DNA of 36,417 bases from a virus (IMGVR_UViG_3300026518_000030:1-36417), one strand, 5' to 3'; shown: positions 1-31,887, counted from the first letter of the stretch. Notes: generated from the letters alone by a model not told the origin. A program made the numbers and translations.

Positions 1-138
1 TTCTTTAAGCGCGTTACGTTCGGCTTGCAGGTCGGCGTGTTTCTTCAAAATCGCGTCAATCGTTTGCTTTTGGCTTTCTATAACTTCGCTTAGTGATTTT
101 ATAGTTTCACTTGCGTTATGCGGTTCTAGCATTGTCAT
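1..138 (-). CDS. Coiled-coil small protein, N-terminal fragment (paralogue of 31178-31687)
   Basis: The first 46 codons of a leftward gene that leaves the window at base 1. The start ATG overlaps by one base the TAA of the gene ending at 138. The visible part differs from the first 46 residues of the 169-residue protein at 31178-31687 at one position only (Leu4 here, Pro4 there). That full-length copy is charged and heptad-rich throughout, a likely coiled coil. No function is recognised. Confidence 0.75.
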   Translation of the reverse strand, partial: MTMLEPHNASETIKSLSEVIESQKQTIDAILKKHADLQAERNALKE

Positions 139-338
139 TACTTAATCTCCTTAAGCTTATGTAGGACTGCGTTGTTGCCACGTTGGAAACCTAAAAGTTC
201 TGCGGATTCGAAAACAGAATAATCATCCATCCAAGGTTCGGGTTCTTCGATTTTCTCACCGAAGATTTTTTGTTCTTCTTTCTCCAACTCCCCGCTATAC
301 ACTATGCGGTACATCTTAAGTGCTGCGAGAATGGTTTC
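1..338. repeat. Direct repeat copy A, cut by the left edge
   Basis: These bases match 31550-31887 in the same orientation. The first 127 bases are identical, and only five mismatches occur up to base 338 (at 128, 249, 299, 317 and 330), after which the sequences diverge. The repeat covers the start of a coiled-coil gene and the 3' half of the gene upstream of it. Both copies are leftward, so a two-gene cassette has been duplicated with the structural region between the copies. Confidence 0.95.
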
Positions 339-452
339 CTCGTCCTGCACTGATGGCATGATGTTTTCACTACCGTCTTTGCTTAAGAATGTCATTGTGT
401 AATCTTTATTTGAGACTAAATCCAAAGCTTCCTGCGCTTTATTCTGTGTCAT
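138..452 (-). CDS. Hypothetical acidic phage protein, paralogue of 31687-32019
   Basis: 104 residues, unknown function. The start ATG follows a GGGAGC ribosome site and overlaps the previous gene by four bases (ATGA). The C-terminal 66 residues, from ETILAALKMYR onward, are almost identical to the product of 31687-32019 (two differences). The N-termini share only the MTQNK start and a short helix, so the two copies have a conserved C-terminal module and exchanged N-terminal segments. No enzyme motif or membrane segment is visible. Confidence 0.8.
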   Translation of the reverse strand: MTQNKAQEALDLVSNKDYTMTFLSKDGSENIMPSVQDEETILAALKMYRIVYSGELEKEEQKIFGEKIEEPEPWMDDYSVFESAELLGFQRGNNAVLHKLKEIK

Positions 453-658
453 TGGTTTGCTCCCGCTGGCTCTATGTTACTTAATCCAACCGCAGCACAA
501 TCAATGCGTCCTGCGTATAACGTATCTTGCTTAAGCCCGCTACGGCATTCTGTGCCTAATGCTATTGGCTGACTTTCCTTAATGGCAATCACTGCAAAGG
601 CTAGGCCAAATATAATCAGGGATGTTATAAAGATTAGTGCTTGGTTATGTTCGTTCAT
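449..658 (-). CDS. Small single-pass membrane protein
   Basis: 69 residues with one hydrophobic helix near the N-terminus (about residues 8-26, IFITSLIIFGLAFAVIAI), followed by a short polar tail holding two cysteines. A single inner-membrane anchor or an uncleaved signal is likely. The ATG follows GGTGAG and overlaps the gene before it by four bases; its own stop overlaps the next start by four bases. It belongs to the leftward operon. The family is not recognised. Confidence 0.65.
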   Translation of the reverse strand: MNEHNQALIFITSLIIFGLAFAVIAIKESQPIALGTECRSGLKQDTLYAGRIDCAAVGLSNIEPAGANQ

Positions 659-792
659 AATCTCACCATTTCTAATTTATCAAGAGTGTCTGTTATATCG
701 GTTTTAGCCAGTTTATTGCACATATCACGTATAGAAGTATGCATGACTTGATTAATGCTTTCGCCGTTGAATTGTAGTTTTAATTTAATCAT
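655..792 (-). CDS. Small hypothetical protein, 45 residues
   Basis: A leftward ORF starting MIKLKLQFNG and ending KLEMVRL. It has a good GAGGGC ribosome site six bases or so before the ATG. It overlaps both neighbours by exactly four bases (ATGA), which is the main reason to believe it is real. No domain is recognised; the sequence suggests a short strand followed by a helix. Confidence 0.6.
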   Translation of the reverse strand: MIKLKLQFNGESINQVMHTSIRDMCNKLAKTDITDTLDKLEMVRL

Positions 793-1026
793 TTGCCCTC
801 AACTATATATTTAAATAGGTACGTATTATCCTTGGCAAAATATCCAATCTTTTCTTGGAAACCTATAGCCTTACCAATAGCGATACGTTTCTTTACTAGA
901 TATGCTTTCTCTCTATCAATCTCGCTTGCGTGTGAGATATAAGAGCGAGCTGTAGCATAGTGTAGGCGCTCACCTTTTTTTTAAGTTACGTAGTAATGCG
1001 TAAAAGTGTTTAATTTCTTGTTCCAT
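789..1026 (-). CDS. Small hypothetical protein with an apparent frameshift in an A8 tract
   Basis: First gene of the leftward operon, with an AAGGG ribosome site. From the ATG the frame reads MEQEIKHFYALLRNLKKR and stops. If one A of the eight-A run (T run at 975-982 on the plus strand) is dropped, reading continues for a coherent, charged 78-residue protein ending YIVEGK. Its stop overlaps the next start by four bases, exactly as elsewhere in this operon. This could be a sequencing indel, transcriptional slippage, a +1 shift, or decay. The downstream part is protein-like (KAYLVKKRIAIGKAIGFQEK). Function unknown. Confidence 0.5.
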
Positions 1027-1052
1027 GTGAATTCCCTTCATTCGATATAAAC

Positions 1053-1081
1053 AAACTAATCCATAAAAAAGCCCTAGTCAA
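1053..1081 (-). promoter_or_regulatory. Candidate leftward promoter for the left operon
   Basis: On the minus strand, TTGACT (1081-1076) lies at the edge of the palindromic operator, in the same arrangement as the TTGACA of the promoter at 4250. At 17 bases' spacing the -10 would be TAGTTT (1058-1053), which is a weak match. The -35 and the shared operator are the stronger evidence; the -10 is uncertain. Confidence 0.4.
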
Positions 1082-1103
1082 TAACTTTTTGTTATTTATT
1101 TTG
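1077..1103. promoter_or_regulatory. Operator copy 1: 17-bp palindrome within a 27-bp repeated sequence
   Basis: Bases 1080-1096 form a perfect interrupted palindrome, AATAAC-TTTTT-GTTATT. The surrounding 27 bases recur exactly, inverted, at 4228-4254. Here the site lies between a leftward and a rightward promoter, the usual place for a phage control operator. The binding protein is unknown; the HTH protein at 1162 and the LexA-like protein at 1683 are candidates. Confidence 0.7.
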
Positions 1104-1104
1104 C

Positions 1105-1132
1105 TTGACATTATATATAGTGCCATTACAAT
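1105..1132 (+). promoter_or_regulatory. Rightward early promoter
   Basis: TTGACA (1105-1110) and TACAAT (1127-1132) are separated by 16 bases and lie 30 bases ahead of the first rightward start codon. The palindrome at 1080-1096 ends nine bases upstream of the -35, so a bound regulator would sit next to the polymerase. Confidence 0.75.
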
Positions 1133-1161
1133 AAGTTTATCTATGCCATAAAGGAGAAATA

Positions 1162-1338
1162 ATGGAGTTAAGAGAAATACTGCTTAAACTTGGTGTTGCG
1201 CGTCAAAATGTAAATGTCTACATGAAGCGAAGAATACCAGATTACTTAATAGCTGAGAGCTTCTTTTTTAAGAATAAGAGATTAAAGAAGCGATGGGAAG
1301 AACATAAAGAATGGGTTAAAAGTCAAATTAATGATTAA
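1162..1338 (+). CDS. Small basic protein, probable helix-turn-helix regulator
   Basis: 58 residues starting MELREILLKLGVARQNV. Residues 5-30 (ILLKLGVARQNVNVYMKRRIPDYLI) have the spacing of a helix-turn-helix; the rest is strongly basic and aromatic (KNKRLKKRWEEHKEWVK). The ATG follows AAGGAG at good spacing and is the first after the early promoter and operator, where phages often encode Cro- or excisionase-like DNA-binding proteins. The stop overlaps the resolvase start by eight bases. The family assignment is inference from the motif and position. Confidence 0.6.
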   Translation: MELREILLKLGVARQNVNVYMKRRIPDYLIAESFFFKNKRLKKRWEEHKEWVKSQIND

Positions 1339-1711
1339 AATATATGACGTTTATTTGCCTTTCCCAGTATCAGTAAACACTGCTTATGGTGGTAGAAAAG
1401 GGCAGAAACGATTTAAGAGTAAAGCATATAAAGCATGGTTAGCTGATGCGCCTAAATTAATATTGCCTGAGTGTGGATGTATTACATTCCCTGTAAAGGT
1501 TAGATACACATTTACAATGCCTGATAAGCGTAAAAGAGATTTGAGTAACTATATTAAGATAGTTGAAGATTATTTGGTAAGCGAGTGTGTATTAGAGGAC
1601 GATAATCATACCGTTGTTAATGAGGTTTCAATAAAAACCGATGGTGTTAATCGTGGCAACGGAAAAGTAAGGATAGAGATATATGACACGCAACGAAAAG
1701 AAGGTATATGA
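1331..1711 (+). CDS. rusA: RusA-like Holliday junction resolvase
   Basis: 126 residues, a normal RusA length. RusA dimers cleave Holliday junctions; in phages they resolve recombination or replication intermediates before packaging. The N-terminal PFPVSVNTAY and the signature RDLSNYIKIVEDYL are visible. Acidic residues D70, D80, D90 and D91 and lysine K76 fall in the order of the RusA active site. A basic stretch (PDKRKR, 64-69) precedes the active site. It sits with recombination genes further along (Rad52-like, SSB). Function is inferred from motifs. Confidence 0.85.
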   Translation: MIKIYDVYLPFPVSVNTAYGGRKGQKRFKSKAYKAWLADAPKLILPECGCITFPVKVRYTFTMPDKRKRDLSNYIKIVEDYLVSECVLEDDNHTVVNEVSIKTDGVNRGNGKVRIEIYDTQRKEGI

Positions 1712-1970
1712 CTTTATACGCCGCAACCTAATGAATGACGGTATATGCCCTTCATATGAAGAAATTAAGGATTATTGCGGCTGGAAGTCAAAAAGCAGCG
1801 TTAACCGTGTTGTGTTGCAACTTGAGAAGAAGGGATATGTAACGCTAAAATATGGCGTTGCACGCTCTATCAAGATTAAAGATAACTACGAAGAATTATA
1901 CAAAAGAGCCATGATGTTTATTGTAAGCAAAGGTCAATATGAGGAGTATATGGACTATGATAAAATATAA
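1683..1970 (+). CDS. LexA-type winged-helix DNA-binding protein without protease domain
   Basis: 95 residues. The N-terminal 65 resemble the LexA DNA-binding domain: MTRNEKKVYDFI, then GICPSYEEIKDYCGWKSKSSVNRVVLQLEKKGYV, a winged helix with the recognition helix around KSKSSVNRV. The C-terminal autopeptidase domain of LexA is absent and is replaced by a short helical tail, so it cannot self-cleave in the LexA manner. It overlaps the resolvase gene by 29 bases. It is the best repressor candidate in the window for the palindromic operators, but that pairing is inference. Confidence 0.7.
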   Translation: MTRNEKKVYDFIRRNLMNDGICPSYEEIKDYCGWKSKSSVNRVVLQLEKKGYVTLKYGVARSIKIKDNYEELYKRAMMFIVSKGQYEEYMDYDKI

Positions 1971-2121
1971 AGTATTAGTAGATAATGAGTATGTGAAGAA
2001 GGATATATGGCTACCACGTGTTATGGGAGTTGGTAGATTTGAGCAAGAGCGTATATCACAAGCTAAAGAGTTAGGATTTAGAGATTTTGGTATTAATGGA
2101 ATGACGTTAAAGAAAGCTTAA
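1957..2121 (+). CDS. Small hypothetical protein, 54 residues
   Basis: Starts MIKYKVLVDNEYV. The ATG at 1957 is chosen over an in-frame ATG at 1939 because GAGGAG at 1941-1946 then serves as ribosome site. It overlaps the LexA-like gene by 14 bases and is the last gene before a terminator. The C-terminal part (ISQAKELGFRDFGINGMTLKKA) looks like a small alpha/beta fold. No family is recognised. Confidence 0.55.
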   Translation: MIKYKVLVDNEYVKKDIWLPRVMGVGRFEQERISQAKELGFRDFGINGMTLKKA

Positions 2122-2156
2122 CTATTTTGTGTGAGTATAGTTTTACCCTGTTCCAT

Positions 2157-2184
2157 AGCCCCGCCATAGTGCGGGGTTCTTTTT
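2157..2184 (+). terminator. Rho-independent terminator
   Basis: Perfect six-pair stem CCCCGC (2159-2164) / GCGGGG (2171-2176), loop CATAGT, followed by TTCTTTTT. The stem is the same as in the terminator at 7576-7609. It closes the first rightward early transcript. Confidence 0.85.
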
Positions 2185-2367
2185 GAGTAGTGCTGGCTCG
2201 GCTTGACTTACGCTATAATACATATTTATAGACCAGCTATACTCAGAATGGGTAGTGTATTAACACCGTTGTCGAGATTTCAACGTGATAAGAACCTCTT
2301 GCTACGCGCTAGCTACGTACCCTTAAACCGTACTCAGTAAAAATAACATACCACCATAAAAAACTAC
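2185..2367. other. Non-coding interval with inverted repeats
   Basis: No convincing gene. GAGTA-GT-GCTGG (2185-2196) pairs with CCAGC-TA-TACTC (2233-2244) around TTGACT (2203-2208) and TATAAT (2214-2219). Those two boxes are too close to act together, so each would need another partner. GAGTATAG at 2133-2140 is an exact inverted copy of CTATACTC at 2237-2244. A direct repeat GCTACG occurs at the centre of 2310-2330. The interval may carry regulatory sites; nothing else was identified. Confidence 0.4.
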
Positions 2368-2395
2368 TTGCAATATATAAAAAGGTGTATAGTAT
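2368..2395 (+). promoter_or_regulatory. Candidate promoter for the gene at 2507
   Basis: TTGCAA (2368-2373), 16 bases, TAGTAT (2390-2395). The match to the consensus is moderate. It lies in an AT-rich patch ahead of a structured leader and the next gene, which needs a promoter because a terminator precedes it. Confidence 0.45.
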
Positions 2396-2506
2396 AACAG
2401 GTGCGAGGGCTTATTCTTTACTTAGCGGTTTAGAAGACAGCCTTTCCCCGATCATGGTTGCCCTCCGCCTTATCTTTAACAATCGGGGTTACTGATCGGG
2501 TTAAAC
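2396..2506 (+). promoter_or_regulatory. Structured mRNA leader with alternative pairings near the start codon
   Basis: GCGAGGGC (2403-2410) pairs with GCCCTC-C-GC (2460-2468) through eight pairs and one bulge. Inside its loop, CCCCGAT (2446-2452) is complementary to ATCGGGG (2482-2488) and, over six bases, to ATCGGG (2495-2500). The second copy ends six bases before the ATG of the next gene, where a ribosome site should be. The layout allows a pseudoknot or a switch between two states that cover or free the start. No known riboswitch class is recognised. Confidence 0.45.
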
Positions 2507-2944
2507 ATGACACAATCAAACGATAACAGAACACACATATACCGCATTAGGCGTAAGTCTGATGGGCTTTTCCTTGAGTGGGTTACGCGCATACCATCTT
2601 GTTATGGTGAGTGGGGTCCTACTGGAGTATTTTGGAAGAAGCCAGAGACCATAAGAAAACACTTATTAGAGCTTTGCACTTATCGTATGTATTGCGGCGA
2701 AGAAGGTTATGTTCATGACCGAAATTCGCGCAGATTTGTTAGAAAGCCACCTAAGACACAAGAAAAATTTTTACAGATTTGGCCTGCTGGAACACAATTA
2801 CATACAGTCGCAGTTATATATGATTGGCTGGATAAATACGAAGTTGTTGCGACTGAGATAAGCGTTCACGGGCAAGATACAATGGAAGCGCGTGACTTTG
2901 CATTATTTAAAGAGGATTTAGAAGGTAATTTAGCAAAAGCCTAA
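2507..2944 (+). CDS. Hypothetical phage protein flanked by structured non-coding DNA
   Basis: 145 residues, mixed composition, rich in Tyr, Trp and Arg (IYRIRRKSDGLFLEWV near the N-terminus). No signal peptide, membrane segment or catalytic signature is evident. The second half (KYEVVATEISVHGQDTMEARDF) looks like an alpha/beta domain. It stands alone: a structured leader with a poor ribosome site precedes it and about 380 bases without genes follow, so it appears to be a separate transcription unit. Function unknown. Confidence 0.7.
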   Translation: MTQSNDNRTHIYRIRRKSDGLFLEWVTRIPSCYGEWGPTGVFWKKPETIRKHLLELCTYRMYCGEEGYVHDRNSRRFVRKPPKTQEKFLQIWPAGTQLHTVAVIYDWLDKYEVVATEISVHGQDTMEARDFALFKEDLEGNLAKA

Positions 2945-3324
2945 ACTTATTTGCTCTCCCTCTGCCTAGAGGACAAAATAAAGCGATGCCCTAAAAGGTA
3001 AACTTTATTAGATAAAAATAGGATACTACAGGTCACCTTACCTGCTAGCAGACATAAAACAAGGTTTATCATTCGGGACTAGCCCGACCCGCTTTAGTTG
3101 ATTTGTATTCGTAATAAAAACTAAGCTAAAGCAGAAGCTACGATTTAATTGGTACTAGTTGGTGGAGAGACTGTGACCCACCCCAAGAGCGTATGGCCTA
3201 CGATAACGGCAGTAGTGGATAGAATGATTATAAAAGTTTTTAAAGGATTATTCTTAAGGGAGTAGTCTACCAAGAGAATACGGGCTGAACGCCTATGTTT
3301 AAAATTAATTAGAAAGGAAAAGTT
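2945..3324 (+). ncRNA. ORF-free, hairpin-rich block; candidate structured RNA
   Basis: About 380 bases without a plausible gene in a genome that otherwise overlaps its genes. Successive hairpins can be drawn: CCTCT/AGAGG (near 2960), ATAAAG/CTTTAT (2977-3007), CAGGT/ACCTG (3030-3045), CGGG-ACTAG-CCCG (3074-3086), GCTTTAG/CTAAAGC (3091-3132), GGTGG/CCACC (3161-3182), CTAC/GTAG (3198-3215) and AGAATGAT/ATTATTCT (3221-3254, one G-U pair). It does not match tmRNA, RNase P, 6S or tRNA as far as can be judged by eye. The strand is assumed from the neighbours. Confidence 0.4.
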
Positions 3325-3525
3325 ATGTTACTTAGTAGAGCTAGAAGATGTGCAAATGGGCACGAACCTGAGATTATTGAATGTGATTTATCTAAAGCTT
3401 ATGGAGGCGACAAATACAAGAGGATGTTTCACGTCAGGTGTAAGGATGGTGGGTGTTGCTTTGGTGATTATTATTTTAAAAGAGGTGATGCTGTAATGGA
3501 TTGGAATGATGGAAGGTTATTGTGA
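3325..3525 (+). CDS. Small zinc-ribbon-like protein, similar in layout to Lar restriction-alleviation proteins
   Basis: 66 residues. C9-x3-H13, then HVRCKDGGC (residues 36-44) and a terminal A-V-M-D-WNDGR motif. This follows the pattern of the Lar family, small phage proteins that moderate type I restriction (metal-binding N-terminus, VxCxxC hairpin, AxxxWNxR end). The usual CPFCG start is replaced by CANGH, so the match is imperfect. A good AAGGAAAAG ribosome site precedes the ATG. The metal-binding fold is likelier than the specific role. Confidence 0.5.
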   Translation: MLLSRARRCANGHEPEIIECDLSKAYGGDKYKRMFHVRCKDGGCCFGDYYFKRGDAVMDWNDGRLL

Positions 3526-3878
3526 TGGACTTTGAAGAATATCTAAGGCAAGCCAAAGAGCAGATAAAAAACACAGAGATAGTAAAGTATGAAAAGGTAG
3601 ATAATAGAAAAAAAGTCTATGATGAATGCAATGACTACTATTCTATAGGATGCACAAAGGACGCTTACGAAGGTGAGATTATAAAGCTTAATGGAGAGGA
3701 GTTTAATATCTATTATCAGAAATACGGGAATGGACGTACTGAGTATCAATTTAGGGATAAGCTGGACGCTATGGATTACTGGCTATCAGATAAACCATAT
3801 AGAGTAACGCAAAATTGGATGAAATATATACCACAGTGGTTAAATAAAGGAGATTATAATGACAGCAGTCAACCTTAA
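3525..3878 (+). CDS. Hypothetical phage protein, 117 residues
   Basis: The ATG at 3525 overlaps the previous stop by one base (TGATG) and has GGAAGG eight bases upstream; a GTG at 3522 would add one residue. The protein is polar and rich in Tyr, Asp and Lys (MDFEEYLRQAKEQIKN at the start; KYGNGRTEYQFRDKLDAMDYWL in the middle). No domain is recognised. Translationally coupled to the zinc-ribbon-like gene before it. Confidence 0.65.
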   Translation: MDFEEYLRQAKEQIKNTEIVKYEKVDNRKKVYDECNDYYSIGCTKDAYEGEIIKLNGEEFNIYYQKYGNGRTEYQFRDKLDAMDYWLSDKPYRVTQNWMKYIPQWLNKGDYNDSSQP

Positions 3879-4026
3879 CAAAGAGCTAGTAGAAGAAGCA
3901 AGGAAAGTATCTAAACAGCAAATGCGCTCGATAGCAAAGCAGATAGAATACTGGGCAAAGATAGGAAAGGCGATGGAAGATAACCCTAGTATTAGTTTTA
4001 ATGAGCTAAAGAAACAAGGGGGGTAG
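3859..4026 (+). CDS. ParD-like antitoxin protein
   Basis: 55 residues starting MTAVNLNKELVEEARKVSK. The layout, a short strand, then xLVEEARxxxxxxxRSIAxQIEYWAKIGKAMEDNP, matches the ParD-like family of predicted type II antitoxins (ribbon-helix-helix DNA-binding fold). AAGGAG lies eight bases before the ATG, and the gene overlaps the end of the preceding one. No recognisable ParE or other toxin is adjacent, so it is an orphan antitoxin or a phage regulator of the same fold. Confidence 0.7.
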   Translation: MTAVNLNKELVEEARKVSKQQMRSIAKQIEYWAKIGKAMEDNPSISFNELKKQGG

Positions 4027-4028
4027 GG

Positions 4029-4235
4029 GTGAGAGGATTGGTATGTGACCACATAAAAATACATTCATGGGATAATGCAGGGTGGGTTAATAAAAAAGGA
4101 ATCAAGAGGATTGTTAGTTATACTTTGTTTAACTTTTATGAAGTACCGCTAGGGCGTATGCAGTATAAAATGAAGTTACTATGTTTAAAGAGAAATAACG
4201 CCTTACCAACATGCTATAAAAATAATTCAAAATAA
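4029..4235 (+). CDS. Possible small basic protein, 68 residues
   Basis: GTG start two bases after the antitoxin stop, with a G-rich AGGGGGG stretch just upstream. The product is basic with several Cys and aromatic residues (VCDHIKIHSWDNAGWVNKKG at the N-terminus) and has no recognised domain. It ends at the edge of the second operator. It occupies the toxin position after the antitoxin, but nothing in the sequence resembles a known toxin. Could be a chance ORF. Confidence 0.35.
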   Translation: MRGLVCDHIKIHSWDNAGWVNKKGIKRIVSYTLFNFYEVPLGRMQYKMKLLCLKRNNALPTCYKNNSK

Positions 4236-4254
4236 ATAACAAAAAGTTATTGAC
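4228..4254. promoter_or_regulatory. Operator copy 2: inverted exact copy of 1077-1103
   Basis: 27 bases identical to 1077-1103 in reverse orientation, with the palindrome AATAAC-AAAAA-GTTATT at 4235-4251. It overlaps the -35 of the promoter at 4250 by two bases, so a bound protein would block or recruit polymerase there. Copy 1 has the same relation to the leftward TTGACT. Confidence 0.75.
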
Positions 4255-4278
4255 ATGTTATAAAACCTATCCTATATT
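4250..4278 (+). promoter_or_regulatory. Rightward promoter of the second early operon
   Basis: TTGACA (4250-4255), 17 bases, TATATT (4273-4278): close to a consensus sigma-70 promoter. The start codon of the first gene is at 4312 with AAGGGG before it. The -35 overlaps operator copy 2, so this operon (4312-7575) is probably co-regulated with the leftward operon. Confidence 0.85.
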
Positions 4279-4311
4279 GAGGATAACAAAACAAATGACA
4301 AGGGGAATACA

Positions 4312-4614
4312 ATGTCAGAAGAAACAAAACAAATTATCGAAGCAATAGACCATAACGATGATGCTGGTGAATGTGAGATTATAGCTTCACACTTTGAAGA
4401 TATGATTGAAGATATGAAAGCATTTATGGCTAAGCACCAAAACGCACGCAACGAGCTTTACAATAAAATTGATTATTCAGGCTTAGATATTTTGATCGAA
4501 GATATGATTGAATTGAAAGAAGCAGCGGAAGCACGTCAAGAAGAGCTTGAAAACGAAAATAGCTGGATGGACTACGGTAAATCACAACGCATTGATTACT
4601 ATGGGGGGCTGTAA
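4312..4614 (+). CDS. Hypothetical acidic helical protein, first gene of the second early operon
   Basis: 100 residues, strongly acidic and predicted mostly helical (HFEDMIEDMKAFMAKH; DILIEDMIELKEAAEARQEE). AAGGGG precedes the ATG. First gene after a strong, operator-controlled promoter, so it should be made early and abundantly; acidic early proteins of this size often bind host factors or mimic DNA, but nothing here identifies a target. Its stop overlaps the next start by one base. Confidence 0.7.
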   Translation: MSEETKQIIEAIDHNDDAGECEIIASHFEDMIEDMKAFMAKHQNARNELYNKIDYSGLDILIEDMIELKEAAEARQEELENENSWMDYGKSQRIDYYGGL

Positions 4615-4748
4615 TGGAACTTATAACCTTTCTTTTTATACCATTTCATAACGGCACATTTAACCTTTTTGCTTGCATGTTATGGTTTACGTTTTTTTTC
4701 TGGCTAGCGGGGTTTATAGCAACAAGGGAGTTTTGGAATGATGTTTAA
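4614..4748 (+). CDS. Small hydrophobic membrane protein, 44 residues
   Basis: Starts MELITFLFIPFHNG. Two hydrophobic stretches (residues 2-11 and 18-35, LFACMLWFTFFFWLAGFI) make one or two membrane passes likely. It overlaps the previous stop by one base (TAATG) and the next gene by 11 bases. A G-rich ribosome site lies upstream. Family unknown. Confidence 0.6.
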   Translation: MELITFLFIPFHNGTFNLFACMLWFTFFFWLAGFIATREFWNDV

Positions 4749-4923
4749 ACGCAAAATAAAGCTCACTGAGAGCGATTTAAGAAAGTTACTGTACCAACAG
4801 CACGTCACAACATTAAATGACGTTCACAGGGCTTTAATTTCGAAAGATGCTAAAGAGACAAAAAGCAGACGCTTAACAGCAATAACAGATATAAACACCA
4901 TGATTATGAGGGAATTGATATGA
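4738..4923 (+). CDS. Small basic hypothetical protein
   Basis: 61 residues (60 if the second ATG at 4741 is used), basic and helical: KIKLTESDLRKLLYQQHVTT. AGGGAG lies upstream within the preceding gene. It overlaps the next start by four bases (ATGA). No domain is recognised. Confidence 0.6.
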   Translation: MMFKRKIKLTESDLRKLLYQQHVTTLNDVHRALISKDAKETKSRRLTAITDINTMIMRELI

Positions 4924-5207
4924 CGAAGACTAAACACACACCAGCGCCTTGGGTATTAAAACCAGACCCTGACGCAGATAATAGGTGGGATATGGTTGTG
5001 GTTTCCGATCATAGATATATACAATGTGAAGGGCGCACTTATGAAGAGGCTCAAGCAAACGCACAACTAATAGTCGCCGCGCCTGAATTGCTTGAGGCTT
5101 TGAAGCTTGTAATGAAACACGCTATTTATGATTATGAAACAAACGACGATATTATAAATGCCGCGGCTATCGCAAATGCTGCAATAGCAAAAGCGGAGGG
5201 GAGATAG
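4920..5207 (+). CDS. Conserved-type phage hypothetical protein (HTPAPW / LIVAAPELLEAL motif)
   Basis: 95 residues. It carries HTPAPW near the N-terminus and ANAQLIVAAPELLEALKLV in the middle, a combination seen in many small hypothetical proteins of phages and prophages of Gram-negative bacteria. The function of that group is unknown. It overlaps its upstream neighbour by four bases (ATGA) and abuts the next gene directly. Confidence 0.75.
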   Translation: MTKTKHTPAPWVLKPDPDADNRWDMVVVSDHRYIQCEGRTYEEAQANAQLIVAAPELLEALKLVMKHAIYDYETNDDIINAAAIANAAIAKAEGR

Positions 5208-5411
5208 ATGAGCAACGTAGTTTACTTGGAAGATTACATTGATAATGGTAATCATGAAGTTGAGCTGGATTTTAACTGTAGGCCAGTATATGTGAAGAAC
5301 TACTATGACATGACAAAACGCCTAGTAATTAGTGAGATGGATTTATTAGCTGGTGGTGTGGGATTTATTAAACACATGTTTCCAGATGCGGAGGTTGAAA
5401 TTGAATATTAG
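5208..5411 (+). CDS. Hypothetical protein, 67 residues
   Basis: Acidic protein starting MSNVVYLEDYIDNGNHEV, probably a small alpha/beta fold. GGGAG of the previous gene's end serves as ribosome site; the ATG directly follows the preceding TAG. The next gene starts inside its last codons. No family is recognised. Confidence 0.6.
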   Translation: MSNVVYLEDYIDNGNHEVELDFNCRPVYVKNYYDMTKRLVISEMDLLAGGVGFIKHMFPDAEVEIEY

Positions 5412-5583
5412 TAAATTAACATATGAGCAAAACAGTCTTTTAAGGGGTCGTATATTTATAAAGAGCCTTAGAGGTACTTTTAAGAAAAGGGCTAGAATGT
5501 GGGCGCTTTATCGTAGATTAGAGAAGCTTGTGACAAGCGGATATTATCCAAACACAGTATATGGAGTTAGTAAATGGACTTAA
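5401..5583 (+). CDS. Small basic hypothetical protein, TTG start
   Basis: 60 residues starting at TTG 5401, chosen because GGAGG (5390-5394) stands six bases upstream; an ATG at 5386 in the same frame has no ribosome site. Very basic (RGTFKKRARMWALYRRLEKL), so nucleic-acid binding is possible. It overlaps the previous gene by 11 bases and the Rad52-like gene by 10. Family unknown. Confidence 0.55.
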   Translation: MNISKLTYEQNSLLRGRIFIKSLRGTFKKRARMWALYRRLEKLVTSGYYPNTVYGVSKWT

Positions 5584-6167
5584 CACTCTTGAAAAAATCA
5601 TTTCATTATAGGGATATTGACTGGAGGATAGGGCGCGTAACGGATGAGATAAAGGGCATAGCGTCAGTGCTTGCCTACATTGATGTTCGGGCGCTGTATC
5701 AGAAGTTTGATGACGCTTGTGGCGTTAATGGGTGGCAGATAACCTACCCGCATGTAGGGCAAAAGACTTGCTGTGAAATATCTGTTTTAATAGGCGATAG
5801 GTGGGTAACTAAATCTAATGGCGCTGGAGATACGGCGGTTGAGGGTGATAAGGGCGCTTTTTCAGATGCAGCAAAGAGGGCTGGCGTTCCTTGGGGTGTT
5901 GGCCGCTATTTGTACGATATGCCAGATATTAAGGTTAGTGTAAAAAAGGTTGGTAGAAATTATTACATAGAAAAAGAGGAGTACCCAAAGCTTAATAAAC
6001 TGGCAACCATGATGGGTAAGCTAAACGACCTAGAAACCATCCAGCAATTTAATGATATTGTTCCAGAGCTAAAAGAGTACAAGGAAACACTTGACTGGAA
6101 CACAAAGTATCAATTTGAGCAGTACGGCGCTAAAGTAAAGGAGTTGTTAGGTGGAAAACTTATTTAA
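5574..6167 (+). CDS. Rad52/22-family single-strand annealing protein
   Basis: 197 residues. Phage Rad52-like proteins form rings on single-stranded DNA and anneal complementary strands. The family core is visible: SVLAYIDVRALYQKFDDACGVNGWQITY, then ISVLIGDRWVTKSNGAGDTAVEGDKGAFSDAAKRAGVPWGVGRYLY (about residues 33-120), with the diagnostic KGAFSDAxKRA and GxGRYLY motifs. The C-terminal 60 residues are a variable helical tail. It is followed by a Gp157-like protein and SSB, a typical phage recombination cassette. Its end overlaps the next gene by 17 bases. Confidence 0.88.
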   Translation: MDLTLLKKSFHYRDIDWRIGRVTDEIKGIASVLAYIDVRALYQKFDDACGVNGWQITYPHVGQKTCCEISVLIGDRWVTKSNGAGDTAVEGDKGAFSDAAKRAGVPWGVGRYLYDMPDIKVSVKKVGRNYYIEKEEYPKLNKLATMMGKLNDLETIQQFNDIVPELKEYKETLDWNTKYQFEQYGAKVKELLGGKLI

Positions 6168-6522
6168 CGAAATATCGGAACTTGATACGACAATTGATGA
6201 TTTAAAGGCTACAAAGAAAAATATAGAAAACAGTATTAAGGCAGCAGAAAAGCGTAGGCAGTTGTTAGCTGAAAAGGCTGTTAATGAAATGCAAGAGAAC
6301 GGTGTTCTGAACACAGATGAGTGCGGGTATAGGTGGGGTGTCAGGCATAATCCACCAAAGCCGATAATTGTTGATGATAGCAAAATTCCAGATAAGTTTT
6401 GGAAAGTTAAGAGAGAGGTTGATAAAAGTAAAATAAACGCCGCTTGCAAGCTTGGTGAGAGTGTAGATGGTGTTATGTTGGATAACGGTTCGATAAGTTT
6501 AACAAAAGGAGCGAAGAAATGA
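6151..6522 (+). CDS. Gp157-like phage protein
   Basis: 123 residues, GTG start with AAGGAG upstream. An N-terminal coiled coil (about residues 5-50, [26 protein letters not shown]) is followed by [44 protein letters not shown], the pattern of the siphovirus Gp157 family (RxNPPxxxxxDxxxIPxxxxxxxxxxDKxxIxxxLKxGE). Members often sit beside annealing proteins and SSB, as here. The family's molecular role is poorly known; some are linked to phage resistance. Confidence 0.75.
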
Positions 6523-6992
6523 GCAGCGTTAATAAGGTAATCATAGTAGGTAATGTTGGTAATGACCCTGAAATTAGGTCAATGCAATCAGGTGATGAGG
6601 TGTGCAATCTATCAATAGCAACGTCTGATAGTTGGAAAGATAAATCAACTGGTGAGAAGAAAGAAAAAACAGAATGGCACAATGTTGTTGTATATGGAGG
6701 TTTAATCAATGTGATTAGAAACCACGTAACAAAAGGCTCTAAACTGTATATCGAGGGTGAGCTTCAAACCCGTAAATGGCAGGATAAAAACGGCAACGAT
6801 AGATACACAACCGAAGTTGTATTGCGTGGTTTTAATTCAAACATAGTTATATTGAGCTTTGCAGATAGGCCAAAAGACAATCGATATGATGAGGTAAAGC
6901 AAGCTGTAGAGAATACGCAAACATACGGCGGCGGTGGTGATTTTGACTCAGAAATCCCTTTTACTCGACACCTTGATTTTGTAGGAGGTTAA
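6519..6992 (+). CDS. ssb: Single-stranded DNA-binding protein
   Basis: 157 residues. The OB-fold (residues 1-110) is clear: [17 protein letters not shown], then [12 protein letters not shown] and [29 protein letters not shown]. It coats single-stranded DNA during recombination and replication. Unusually, the acidic partner-binding tip DSEIPF (residues 143-148) is not terminal: nine more residues, TRHLDFVGG, follow before the stop. In bacterial SSB the tip ends in Phe with a free carboxylate. It overlaps the Gp157-like gene by four bases. Confidence 0.92.
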
Positions 6993-7179: not shown

Positions 7180-7575
7180 ATGAAAATTAAAGAATTCAAA
7201 GCGTGGTTTGAGGGGTACAGTGAAAATATACCTGATTCACCAAATGCTGAACAATGGGAAAGAATTAAGGACGTTGTAAGTAATTTAGAGGAATTTGTAA
7301 CTCAAAATCAAGTTGCAATAAGGGCAGGATACAGTGAGAATACAGCAAGTGAGATTGGATATGAAAACCTCACCAAACCTCAGATACAGCAACGTATACA
7401 ATCATTACTACAGGAACGCTCTGCCAAGACTGAAATAACAGCCGAGAACGTGCTTAATGATATTCTAGCTACTAGGGATGAATATGATCGAATTGGTAAT
7501 TTGAGCAATGATATGTATTGTAATATGTTACATATTATCCGTAAAAAAGTCAATTTGGAGCATGGTTCCAACTAA
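7180..7575 (+). CDS. Terminase-small-subunit-like paralogue with a different N-terminus
   Basis: 131 residues. Residues 1-36 (MKIKEFKAWFEGYSENI...PNAEQWERIKDVV) resemble the start of phage hypothetical proteins with an EFxxWFxGxSE motif. From about residue 43 it is homologous to the terminase small subunit at 8252: AIRAGYSENTA, GYENLTKP, LLQERSAKTEITAENVLNDI against AIRAGYSEDTA, GYENLTKP, LLNERSKRREITADYVLDVI. It therefore looks like a fusion that captured a copy of the TerS core. It is the last early gene, before a terminator, apart from the late packaging genes. Its role is unknown. Confidence 0.75.
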   Translation: MKIKEFKAWFEGYSENIPDSPNAEQWERIKDVVSNLEEFVTQNQVAIRAGYSENTASEIGYENLTKPQIQQRIQSLLQERSAKTEITAENVLNDILATRDEYDRIGNLSNDMYCNMLHIIRKKVNLEHGSN

Positions 7576-8251: not shown

Positions 8252-8662
8252 ATGCCCGATAAACTAACAGACAAGCAACGCGCCTTTTGTGAAGAGTACA
8301 TTATAGACCTGAATGCTACACAAGCGGCAATAAGGGCAGGTTACAGTGAAGATACTGCAAAGCAAACAGGTTATGAAAACCTTACAAAACCTTACTTGTC
8401 AGAATACATAAAAACATTATTGAACGAACGCTCCAAGCGTAGAGAGATAACAGCGGATTATGTGCTTGATGTTATCCAAGAGACTTTAGAAAACTCACGC
8501 GCTGACGATGATAGGGCAAATACTTACAAAGGCGCAGAGTTGCTTGGTAAACATTTAAAGATGTTTACAGATAAGGTTGATTTAGGCTTTGACCAGAATG
8601 CCCCTCTAACAGTTAAGGTTGAGAAGACAGTCCGCAATGCCAGAGATAACGATAAGCAATGA
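8252..8662 (+). CDS. terS: Terminase small subunit
   Basis: 136 residues with the Terminase_2 family layout: LTDKQRAFCEEYIIDLNATQAAIRAGYSEDTA (helix-turn-helix region, residues 5-38), then a helical central part and a basic-to-acidic C-terminal tail (VKVEKTVRNARDNDKQ). It recognises the packaging site and feeds DNA to the large subunit. It overlaps the large-subunit gene by 26 bases. An earlier gene (7180-7575) carries a diverged copy of its core. Confidence 0.9.
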   Translation: MPDKLTDKQRAFCEEYIIDLNATQAAIRAGYSEDTAKQTGYENLTKPYLSEYIKTLLNERSKRREITADYVLDVIQETLENSRADDDRANTYKGAELLGKHLKMFTDKVDLGFDQNAPLTVKVEKTVRNARDNDKQ

Positions 8663-12787: not shown

Positions 12788-14026
12788 ATGGCTAACACAA
12801 TTAGTAACATTAAGGATGTCGGAGGCGTTATTGCGAAAGCTGGCGCTAAGGTATTCGAAGATAATCTAGGATTTGCCAAATCTATTGGCAAAGCTGATGA
12901 AAGTGACTTTAATGGTAAGAACGGTTATAAAGCAGGTGATACAATCTATGTAAACCAGCCTATGCGTTCACGTCCTACAAGCGCTTTTGACCAAACATCT
13001 ACAATTCAAGACGTTGTAGAAACAACTGCACCCCTTCCTTTGGATATTATCTCATCACAAGCTTTTGAGGTTAATTCTGAGGAGTTTGCAACTGATATCG
13101 GCATGAACCGAGTAATGCAACGTATCATCAAGCCTGCGGCTATTTCTATGGCGCACGATTTTGAAAATAAGTTGCTTGCAAAAGCCATTGATGGCGTATT
13201 TAACTCAGTTGGTACAGCAGGTTCAAACCAGTTTGATGTGGATTCAATTTTAGCGGCTCGTGAGCTTCTGAATAAAAACCTATGTCCGAAAGACGACAAG
13301 CGCTTTTTCTTGCATGATTCCACAGCGGGTCGCAAGGCGGTTAATGCTCGTAAGAGTCTTTTTCAGTCTTCCGCTGAAATTGCCAAGCAGTACAAGCAGG
13401 GTTTTGTTGGTATGGCTGACGGCTTTACATGGCTAGAAAGCGAAATGCTGAAAACTCACACAAACGGTAATGATGTGGCCTTTGAGGTTCGCACAACTGT
13501 TTCAACTGAGGGCGCAACATCACTTGTTGTTGAGGGGCTAACTACTACAACTGGAACAGTGACAAAAGGTACAGTCTTCACGATTGATAGCGTTTATGCT
13601 GTTCACCCACAAACAGGTGAGACACAATCCCACCTACAACAGTTTGTAGTGACTGCTGATGCAACTGCGGATGGTTCAGGTTATGCTACACTAAGCATTA
13701 GCCCAGCTATTTACACAAGCGCATCTGACGGTCTTCAAAATGTATCCGCTTTCCCTGCTGATGGTGATACAATCACCCCTGTTGGTTCAGCATCTACAGG
13801 CTACAAGCAGAACCTTGCTTTCCATGAAAGCGCGTTCCGCATGGCGACAGTGCCTCTTATTATGCCTAAGAATGCTGAATTTGCAGCGCAAGAGACATAT
13901 AAGGGTATGACGTTCTCAGTTGTTTATGACTGGGATCAGTTGAAGCGCTCTATGGTTCTTCGCTTGGATGTTCTTGGCGGTCTATGCTTTGAGCGTCCTG
14001 AGTGGGCTGTCAAGGTAACTGCATAA
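12788..14026 (+). CDS. Major capsid (coat) protein, P22-like
   Basis: 412 residues, about the length of P22 gp5 (430). MANTISNIKDVGGVIAKAGAKVFEDNLGFAK and GDTIYVNQPMRSRP at the N-terminus, with the telokin-like insertion region in the middle (VEGLTTTTGTVTKGTVFTIDSVYAVHPQTGETQSHLQQFVV, about residues 240-290), follow the P22 coat family. It forms the icosahedral shell with the HK97 fold. AAAGGAG lies ten bases before the ATG. Confidence 0.93.
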   Translation: MANTISNIKDVGGVIAKAGAKVFEDNLGFAKSIGKADESDFNGKNGYKAGDTIYVNQPMRSRPTSAFDQTSTIQDVVETTAPLPLDIISSQAFEVNSEEFATDIGMNRVMQRIIKPAAISMAHDFENKLLAKAIDGVFNSVGTAGSNQFDVDSILAARELLNKNLCPKDDKRFFLHDSTAGRKAVNARKSLFQSSAEIAKQYKQGFVGMADGFTWLESEMLKTHTNGNDVAFEVRTTVSTEGATSLVVEGLTTTTGTVTKGTVFTIDSVYAVHPQTGETQSHLQQFVVTADATADGSGYATLSISPAIYTSASDGLQNVSAFPADGDTITPVGSASTGYKQNLAFHESAFRMATVPLIMPKNAEFAAQETYKGMTFSVVYDWDQLKRSMVLRLDVLGGLCFERPEWAVKVTA

Positions 14027-31177: not shown

Positions 31178-31687
31178 TCACTCCTTCTCTTTATGTTTGT
31201 AGTTGTTGATTGCTTCCGTTACTTCGCCGCAAACGTTTAAAGGAATGGGTTTTTGATCATGCATATAGCAATCAACCCATTCCAAAGCATCACACAGCGC
31301 ATCGGCTTGTGCTTTAACCTTTTTAATCTCACGCTCTAAAAGCTCTATAGTAGCATCACGGGAGGCAACCCCGTCTGTGCTTTCACTTGTTTTGCACTCT
31401 ACCTTTTTACCGTCCAGTGTGTAGGCGTAGCCCATTTCTAAGCGCTCACGAAGCCGCTTGTTTTCTGCTTTAAGTGTCGTTATTTCTTTTGCATTATTCT
31501 CTTCAATCTTTAAGCAATCTCTAATCTGACTATCTAGCCGCTCGTTTTCTTCTTTAAGCGCGTTACGTTCGGCTTGCAGGTCGGCGTGTTTCTTCAAAAT
31601 CGCGTCAATCGTTTGCTTTTGGCTTTCTATAACTTCGCTTAGTGATTTTATAGTTTCACTTGCGTTATGCGGTTCTGGCATTGTCAT
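31178..31687 (-). CDS. Coiled-coil protein (full-length paralogue of the gene at 1-138)
   Basis: 169 residues, charged and heptad-rich from residue 10 to 85 (KKHADLQAERNALKEENERLDSQIRD) and again around 115-135, so a long coiled coil. The C-terminal region contains DALEWVDCYMHDQKPIPLN. The start overlaps the preceding stop by one base. A diverged copy starts at the left edge of the window. Function unknown. Confidence 0.75.
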   Translation of the reverse strand: MTMPEPHNASETIKSLSEVIESQKQTIDAILKKHADLQAERNALKEENERLDSQIRDCLKIEENNAKEITTLKAENKRLRERLEMGYAYTLDGKKVECKTSESTDGVASRDATIELLEREIKKVKAQADALCDALEWVDCYMHDQKPIPLNVCGEVTEAINNYKHKEKE

Positions 31688-31887
31688 TACTTAATCTCCT
31701 TAAGCTTATGTAGGACTGCGTTGTTGCCACGTTGGAAACCTAAAAGTTCTGCGGATTCGAAAACAGAATAATCATCCATCCAAGGTTCGGGTTCTTCAAT
31801 TTTCTCACCGAAGATTTTTTGTTCTTCTTTCTCCAACTCCCCGCTATGCACTATGCGGTACATCTCAAGTGCTGCGAGTATGGTTTC
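31550..31887. repeat. Direct repeat copy B
   Basis: Partner of 1-338: identical over its first 127 bases and with five mismatches in 338. Covers the 5' part of the coiled-coil gene and the 3' half of the acidic protein gene at 31687. Confidence 0.95.

Follow-up and report, generated by a model that had tools for sequence, protein, structure and literature searches.

The locus described here raises the question of why a phage would carry the same 27-bp sequence twice, in mirror image, at the starts of two sets of early genes. It was found in a window of 36,417 bp, which is one entire contig (C495) of a 586-contig assembly and which profile and fold searches assign to a phage with P22-type portal and coat proteins, a terminase, a family-B-like DNA polymerase, ThyX and MazG. 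Judged by their sequence and placement, the two copies in this marine phage are most likely a lambda-like pair of repressor-binding sites.

A 27-bp inverted repeat and its two predicted early promoters

Bases 1077–1103 (GTCAATAACTTTTTGTTATTTATTTTG; copy 1, minus strand) are the exact reverse complement of bases 4228–4254 (copy 2, plus strand), with all 27 positions identical in opposite orientation, and each copy holds the palindrome AATAAC-N5-GTTATT, at 1080–1096 and 4235–4251, respectively. The identity claimed in the initial annotation is therefore exact, and it is far beyond chance: nowhere else in the window does an exact inverted repeat with arms at distinct positions reach 15 bp, and the longest inverted repeat in each of 40 dinucleotide-preserving shuffles of the window measured 13–18 bp. 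A search for the palindrome without mismatches, extended from the window to all 4.79 Mb of the assembly, returned these two copies only, and with up to one mismatch allowed the count was 28 against 36 for a reversed control, hence no enrichment. Neither copy has another AATAACN5GTTATT or TAACN5GTTA in its vicinity, such that tandem operators per promoter are absent, and an exact search of the viral contigs with AATAACAAAAAGTTATTGAC gave 0 matches. Neither form of LexA-type operator (CTGT-N8-ACAG or GTTC-N7-GTTC) was matched, and the operator is defined as AATAAC-N5-GTTATT by inspection. Two related palindromes, TTGCCAAATCTATTGGCAA and TTACCAAATCAATTGGTAA, three mismatches apart, lie inside structural genes at 12873 and 16152 and may be due to chance.

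Rightward promoters had been proposed beside both copies, and a promoter scan bears this out, as the two best sigma-70-like promoters of bases 1–6000 are those with TTGACA at 1105 and at 4250, both matching the consensus at 11 of 12 positions. The first (TTGACA-16-TACAAT, 1105–1132, plus strand) would be the equivalent of P_R, and the palindrome of copy 1 ends 8 bp before its −35 box. The second (TTGACA-17-TATATT, 4250–4278, plus strand) shares 2 nt of its −35 box with the palindrome of copy 2, and its gene content suggests an equivalent of P_L, since it precedes a short early ORF and an annealing-protein operon, as P_L does in the related contigs L019 and L010 (see below). Of the three transcription units originally claimed, these two are firm and the third is weak: the possible leftward promoter (TTGACT-17-TAGTTT, 1053–1081, minus strand), seen by sequence inspection, combines a good −35 with a poor −10 box (TAGTTT), matches about 8 of 12 positions and falls under the threshold of the promoter scan. 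At copy 2 and at this leftward promoter, the centre of the palindrome lies 7 bp upstream of the −35 box. That spacing would also fit an activator site about 42 bp upstream of the starts at 4250 and leftward, which could recruit polymerase in a class II-like manner and switch between early gene sets, and the poor −10 box of the leftward promoter would be in keeping with a need for activation. We nevertheless consider activation improbable, as the promoters at 1105 and 4250 are near consensus and need no activator, and operators in the relatives of this phage lie inside the spacer between −35 and −10, where repression alone is plausible.

Behind copy 1, the first gene (1162–1338, plus strand) encodes a 58-aa protein and occupies the position of cro in relatives, which makes it a candidate Cro-like repressor. 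It is followed by a gene for a RusA-like Holliday junction resolvase (1331–1711, plus strand; PF05866, 1.1e-8; phrog_34, 6.8e-23) and one for a winged-helix protein (1683–1970, plus strand; phrog_3502) with a homologue at L019:8145–8432; the initial annotation of the latter as a protease-less LexA-like protein holds, with a match to the LexA DNA-binding domain (PF01726, 5.7e-10) and no peptidase domain. The first leftward gene (789–1026, minus strand; from the ATG at 1026 to a stop at 789) carries a frameshift at 979–986, in a run of 8 A/T bases after which the other frame continues to a total of 79 aa, and the frameshift is probably a sequencing or assembly (homopolymer) error. Behind copy 2, the operon begins with a gene for a 100-aa early protein with no significant Pfam match (4312–4614, plus strand) and includes genes for a Rad52/Erf-like single-strand annealing protein (5574–6167, plus strand; PF04098, 3.5e-15; phrog_1097, 1.3e-39) and a single-strand DNA-binding protein, SSB (6519–6992, plus strand; PF00436, 3.6e-36). 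Further along lie two neighbouring genes of the terminase small subunit type (7180–7575 and 8252–8662), which share a 72-bp stretch at 79% identity.

The early region also contains long non-coding stretches, at 2122–2506 and 2945–3324 in the window, L019:4434–4895 and L010:3455–3790. Compared with shuffled sequences, predicted RNA folding was stronger for L010 (z −3.6) and L019 (z −3.4), weaker for 2122–2506 (z −2.0) and absent for 2945–3324; these stretches could be antitermination-type or other leader RNAs, and an Rfam search of the whole window returned no convincing RNA family.

Probable operator pairs in related phages and operator-like sites in unrelated ones

The first 8 kb of the window matched nothing among the phage records searched, and a scan of genome contigs with terminase alignment yielded relatives at 32–40% identity only. 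A terminase search returned phage contigs at 61–69% identity, and four relatives (terminase 63–68% identical) include the early control region. All four (4/4) carry an inverted palindrome pair at two outward early promoters, each with its own sequence, the pairs being inferred from sequence as in the window. L019 (with G012) has GGACA-N3..5-TGTCC in arms at 2411–2446 and 4197–4232, with a CI-like gene (3783–4145, minus strand) and a Cro-like gene (~4230–4433) between or at the pair, both named by position and appearance only, as neither matches Pfam. G007 has TTCACC-N5-GGTGAA at P_L (1203) and P_R (35479), so that the pair spans the joined ends of its contig, which are identical over 21 bp, and HTH_3 proteins in both the CI-like and Cro-like positions; its pair does not by itself exceed the best shuffled score and was assigned from the two outward promoters and additional upstream sites. 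L010 has GTTCT-N7-AGAAC at 2986–3019 and 3227–3260, a distance of ~0.2 kb, and L014 has TTTAC-N5-GTAAA at ~478 and ~791. Neither of these two has a cI between its sites, and both have a Cro-like gene beside them, that of L010 matching HTH_3. The pairs of L019 and L010 were recovered by a looser recurring-palindrome scan, a stricter scan having missed both, and that of L014 was found by inspecting the divergent region and the repeat list rather than by scans. More distant contigs (G409–G415) showed no convincing palindrome pair.

The geometry of these pairs can be compared with that of the window. Upstream operators in the relatives end 7–8 bp before the −35 box (5/5), compared with 8 bp for copy 1. 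In L019 and L010, a leftward P_L precedes the annealing-protein operon and P_R precedes the cro-like gene; the matching operon of the window (the 4312 gene, Rad52-like, SSB) reads rightward from behind copy 2. The relatives place operators within the spacer between −35 and −10, whereas copy 2 of the window instead lies at the −35 box (about −42), and L019 and G007 have two operators per promoter where the window has one per site. As all four pairs are inverted and consist of different palindromes, we conclude that the layout is conserved and the operator sequence is not, a situation also seen in heteroimmune lambdoid phages, which likewise share a layout with differing operator sequences. The expectation that AATAAC-N5-GTTATT would be enriched in related phages thus failed, with the core occurring 0 times in 176 kb from 16 terminase-relative loci, because operator sequence varies from phage to phage.

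The conserved layout also bears on whether the repeats might be the ends of a mobile or invertible segment, an insertion or a switchable promoter block. Exact 27-bp inverted repeats flanking ~3.1 kb would suit such an element. The copies are, however, palindromes in their own right and located at promoters, the families listed include no profile of a recombinase, integrase or transposase, and a layout kept with different sequences in relatives is unexpected for terminal repeats. We therefore consider a mobile or invertible segment very improbable and interpret the repeats as operators.

Sites of the same type do occur elsewhere. In a scan of viral contigs, AATAAC-N5-GTTATTGACA (AATAACN5GTTATTGACA) was found at 20 loci, so that the placement of copy 2, with the palindrome overlapping the −35 box, is found in other phages. 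Another TAACN5GTTA lies within 60 bp at 14 of the 20 loci, where the density of the loci themselves predicts 0.89, a count of 14 that includes near-duplicate contigs (e.g. L023, L037, L040) and comes from a search pattern that itself fixed the −35 placement. Neighbouring genes encode a Peptidase_S24/BetR repressor (L023; L027 and L040 have similar sequences), YdaS/P22_Cro (L033) and Phage_CI_repr (L022). Two or more operators are the rule in phages with the TAAC motif; the window has a single one per site. Arrays of TAAC-N5-GTTA, often 20–28 bp apart, stand at promoter-like sites in L023, L024, L025, L027, L029–L034, L036–L038 and L040, and judging from their sequences, such arrays in unrelated phages and prophages represent a widespread operator type. 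As the core motif is absent from the 176 kb of terminase relatives, this operator type would be shared with unrelated phages and not passed down among the relatives. The claim that the palindrome is an operator common to early promoters gains from both comparisons, namely the same layout with other palindromes in four relatives and the overlap of the motif with −35 boxes in CI/Cro control regions of unrelated phages.

A candidate ligand and no recognisable CI

Which protein would bind the pair is best approached through the genes behind copy 1. The 58-aa product of 1162–1338 is by inference the likeliest ligand. Inspection shows an HTH-like sequence, LREILLKLGVARQNVNVYMKRRIPD (L-G-V-A-R-Q-N-V...IP), and a single-sequence prediction gives a four-helix model with pLDDT 74; the HTH assigned to this protein in the initial annotation was left unconfirmed by profile and fold searches, which returned no usable Pfam match up to E 10, no fold match and a best PHROG match that is insignificant (E 0.037). 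Close relatives of the protein were found neither in the viral contigs, nor in phages, nor in 149 other genomes of the same family. That its HTH is unconfirmed speaks for a different ligand of the same operator pair, either the LexA-like winged-helix protein of 1683–1970, which has a PF01726 DNA-binding domain without a peptidase and whose gene sits in the operon behind copy 1, or some other unrecognised phage protein. The family of the LexA-like protein overlaps the wing domains of replication initiators, and the L019 homologue is encoded ~4 kb inside the right (replication) operon of a phage that has an unrelated operator and CI-like and Cro-like genes of its own. The two recognition helices differ, and the LexA-like protein may still be the ligand. 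Because the L019 homologue lies so deep in its operon and the operator there is quite different, we regard the LexA-like protein as the less likely ligand, and a ligand other than the 58-aa product as unlikely overall.

The initial annotation had also noted the absence of a CI-like repressor, which holds as far as profiles can tell. No CI, HTH_3 or Peptidase_S24 match was found by Pfam among the 47 predicted proteins of this open-ended contig, nor among the 25 of 61 PHROG families listed, and integrase or plasmid-type maintenance genes were likewise without a Pfam match among the predicted proteins, the contig ends being open. Bases 1–338 repeat bases 31550–31887 at 98.5% identity (338 bp), such that the left contig end duplicates an internal stretch, which points to mixed strains, a duplicated gene block or a contig end left unresolved. 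As the contig is thus open-ended, the absence of cI from the phage is only likely.

The repeats, the promoter matches, the shared geometry and the operator diversity of the relatives, and the lack of CI and integrase profile matches were observed directly, whereas we infer that a protein binds the pair, which protein this is, and that it represses rather than activates. We consider it probable that the copies form an O_L/O_R-type operator pair for the early operons, with the 58-aa product as the most likely ligand and Cro-only control. A small dimeric repressor would bind AATAAC-N5-GTTATT, at the −35 box or shortly before it, and block RNA polymerase. Copy 1 would govern the P_R-type promoter at 1105, and with it the 58-aa gene, rusA and the LexA-like gene, possibly together with the weak divergent leftward promoter, and copy 2 would govern the promoter at 4250, with the operon of the 4312 gene, Rad52-like and SSB, whose counterpart in two relatives is that of P_L. 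The likeliest repressor, the Cro-like 58-aa protein encoded first behind copy 1, would then act by negative feedback to shut down the early operons together. With no recognisable CI, control looks to be Cro-only, and the phage would be virulent or have lost lysogeny.

Comparison with known control regions

Like the lambda-type immunity region (O_L/P_L, CI, O_R/P_R, Cro), the window has control genes flanked by two early promoters with palindromic operators, a small protein encoded first behind a P_R-like promoter, and an operator sequence specific to the phage. Unlike that region, it has one operator per place, no CI was found, 3.1 kb of other genes separate the copies, and the annealing/SSB operon reads rightward, as does the cro-like operon, with the second operator downstream of the latter. 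With two defining features lacking, the cI gene and tandem operators, we describe the locus as a variant of the CI/Cro immunity region rather than a member. A precedent for single-site Cro control is the telomere phage PY54, whose Cro is reported to bind one 16-bp palindromic site only; PY54 has cI, the presumed target of a Cro that does not repress itself, whereas no cI was found in the window (PMC4488713). In CP-933P, a small Cro analogue and a repressor (YdaS/PaaR2) bind a set of inverted repeats lying across divergent promoters, and a further promoter at another position is also under their control. That system differs from the window in its many overlapping repeats, CI analogue, toxin-antitoxin operon and motif half GTTTAGTAA (PMC8630535). 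The S. aureus phage SA97 is described as having lost part of its lysogeny module, with cI absent and no lysogens formed; it keeps an integrase and an antirepressor and is without a recognised Cro, in contrast to the window, where the operator pair is kept and an integrase was not found (PMC4632378).

We tentatively suggest, as a possibility we hold at somewhat below even odds, that the window represents an uncultured phage lineage in which CI was lost and a phage-specific small repressor and operator pair were kept, coordinating the early operons by feedback in lytic growth, with sister phages keeping a full CI/Cro switch of the same geometry and other operator specificities. If true, a single phage group would hold a natural series, from full CI/Cro control (L019, G007) to apparently Cro-only control (L010, L014 and the window), that shares its promoter geometry and differs in its operator sequences, and that would allow the role of Cro to be tested without a lysogeny decision, along with the divergence of operator specificity between close relatives.
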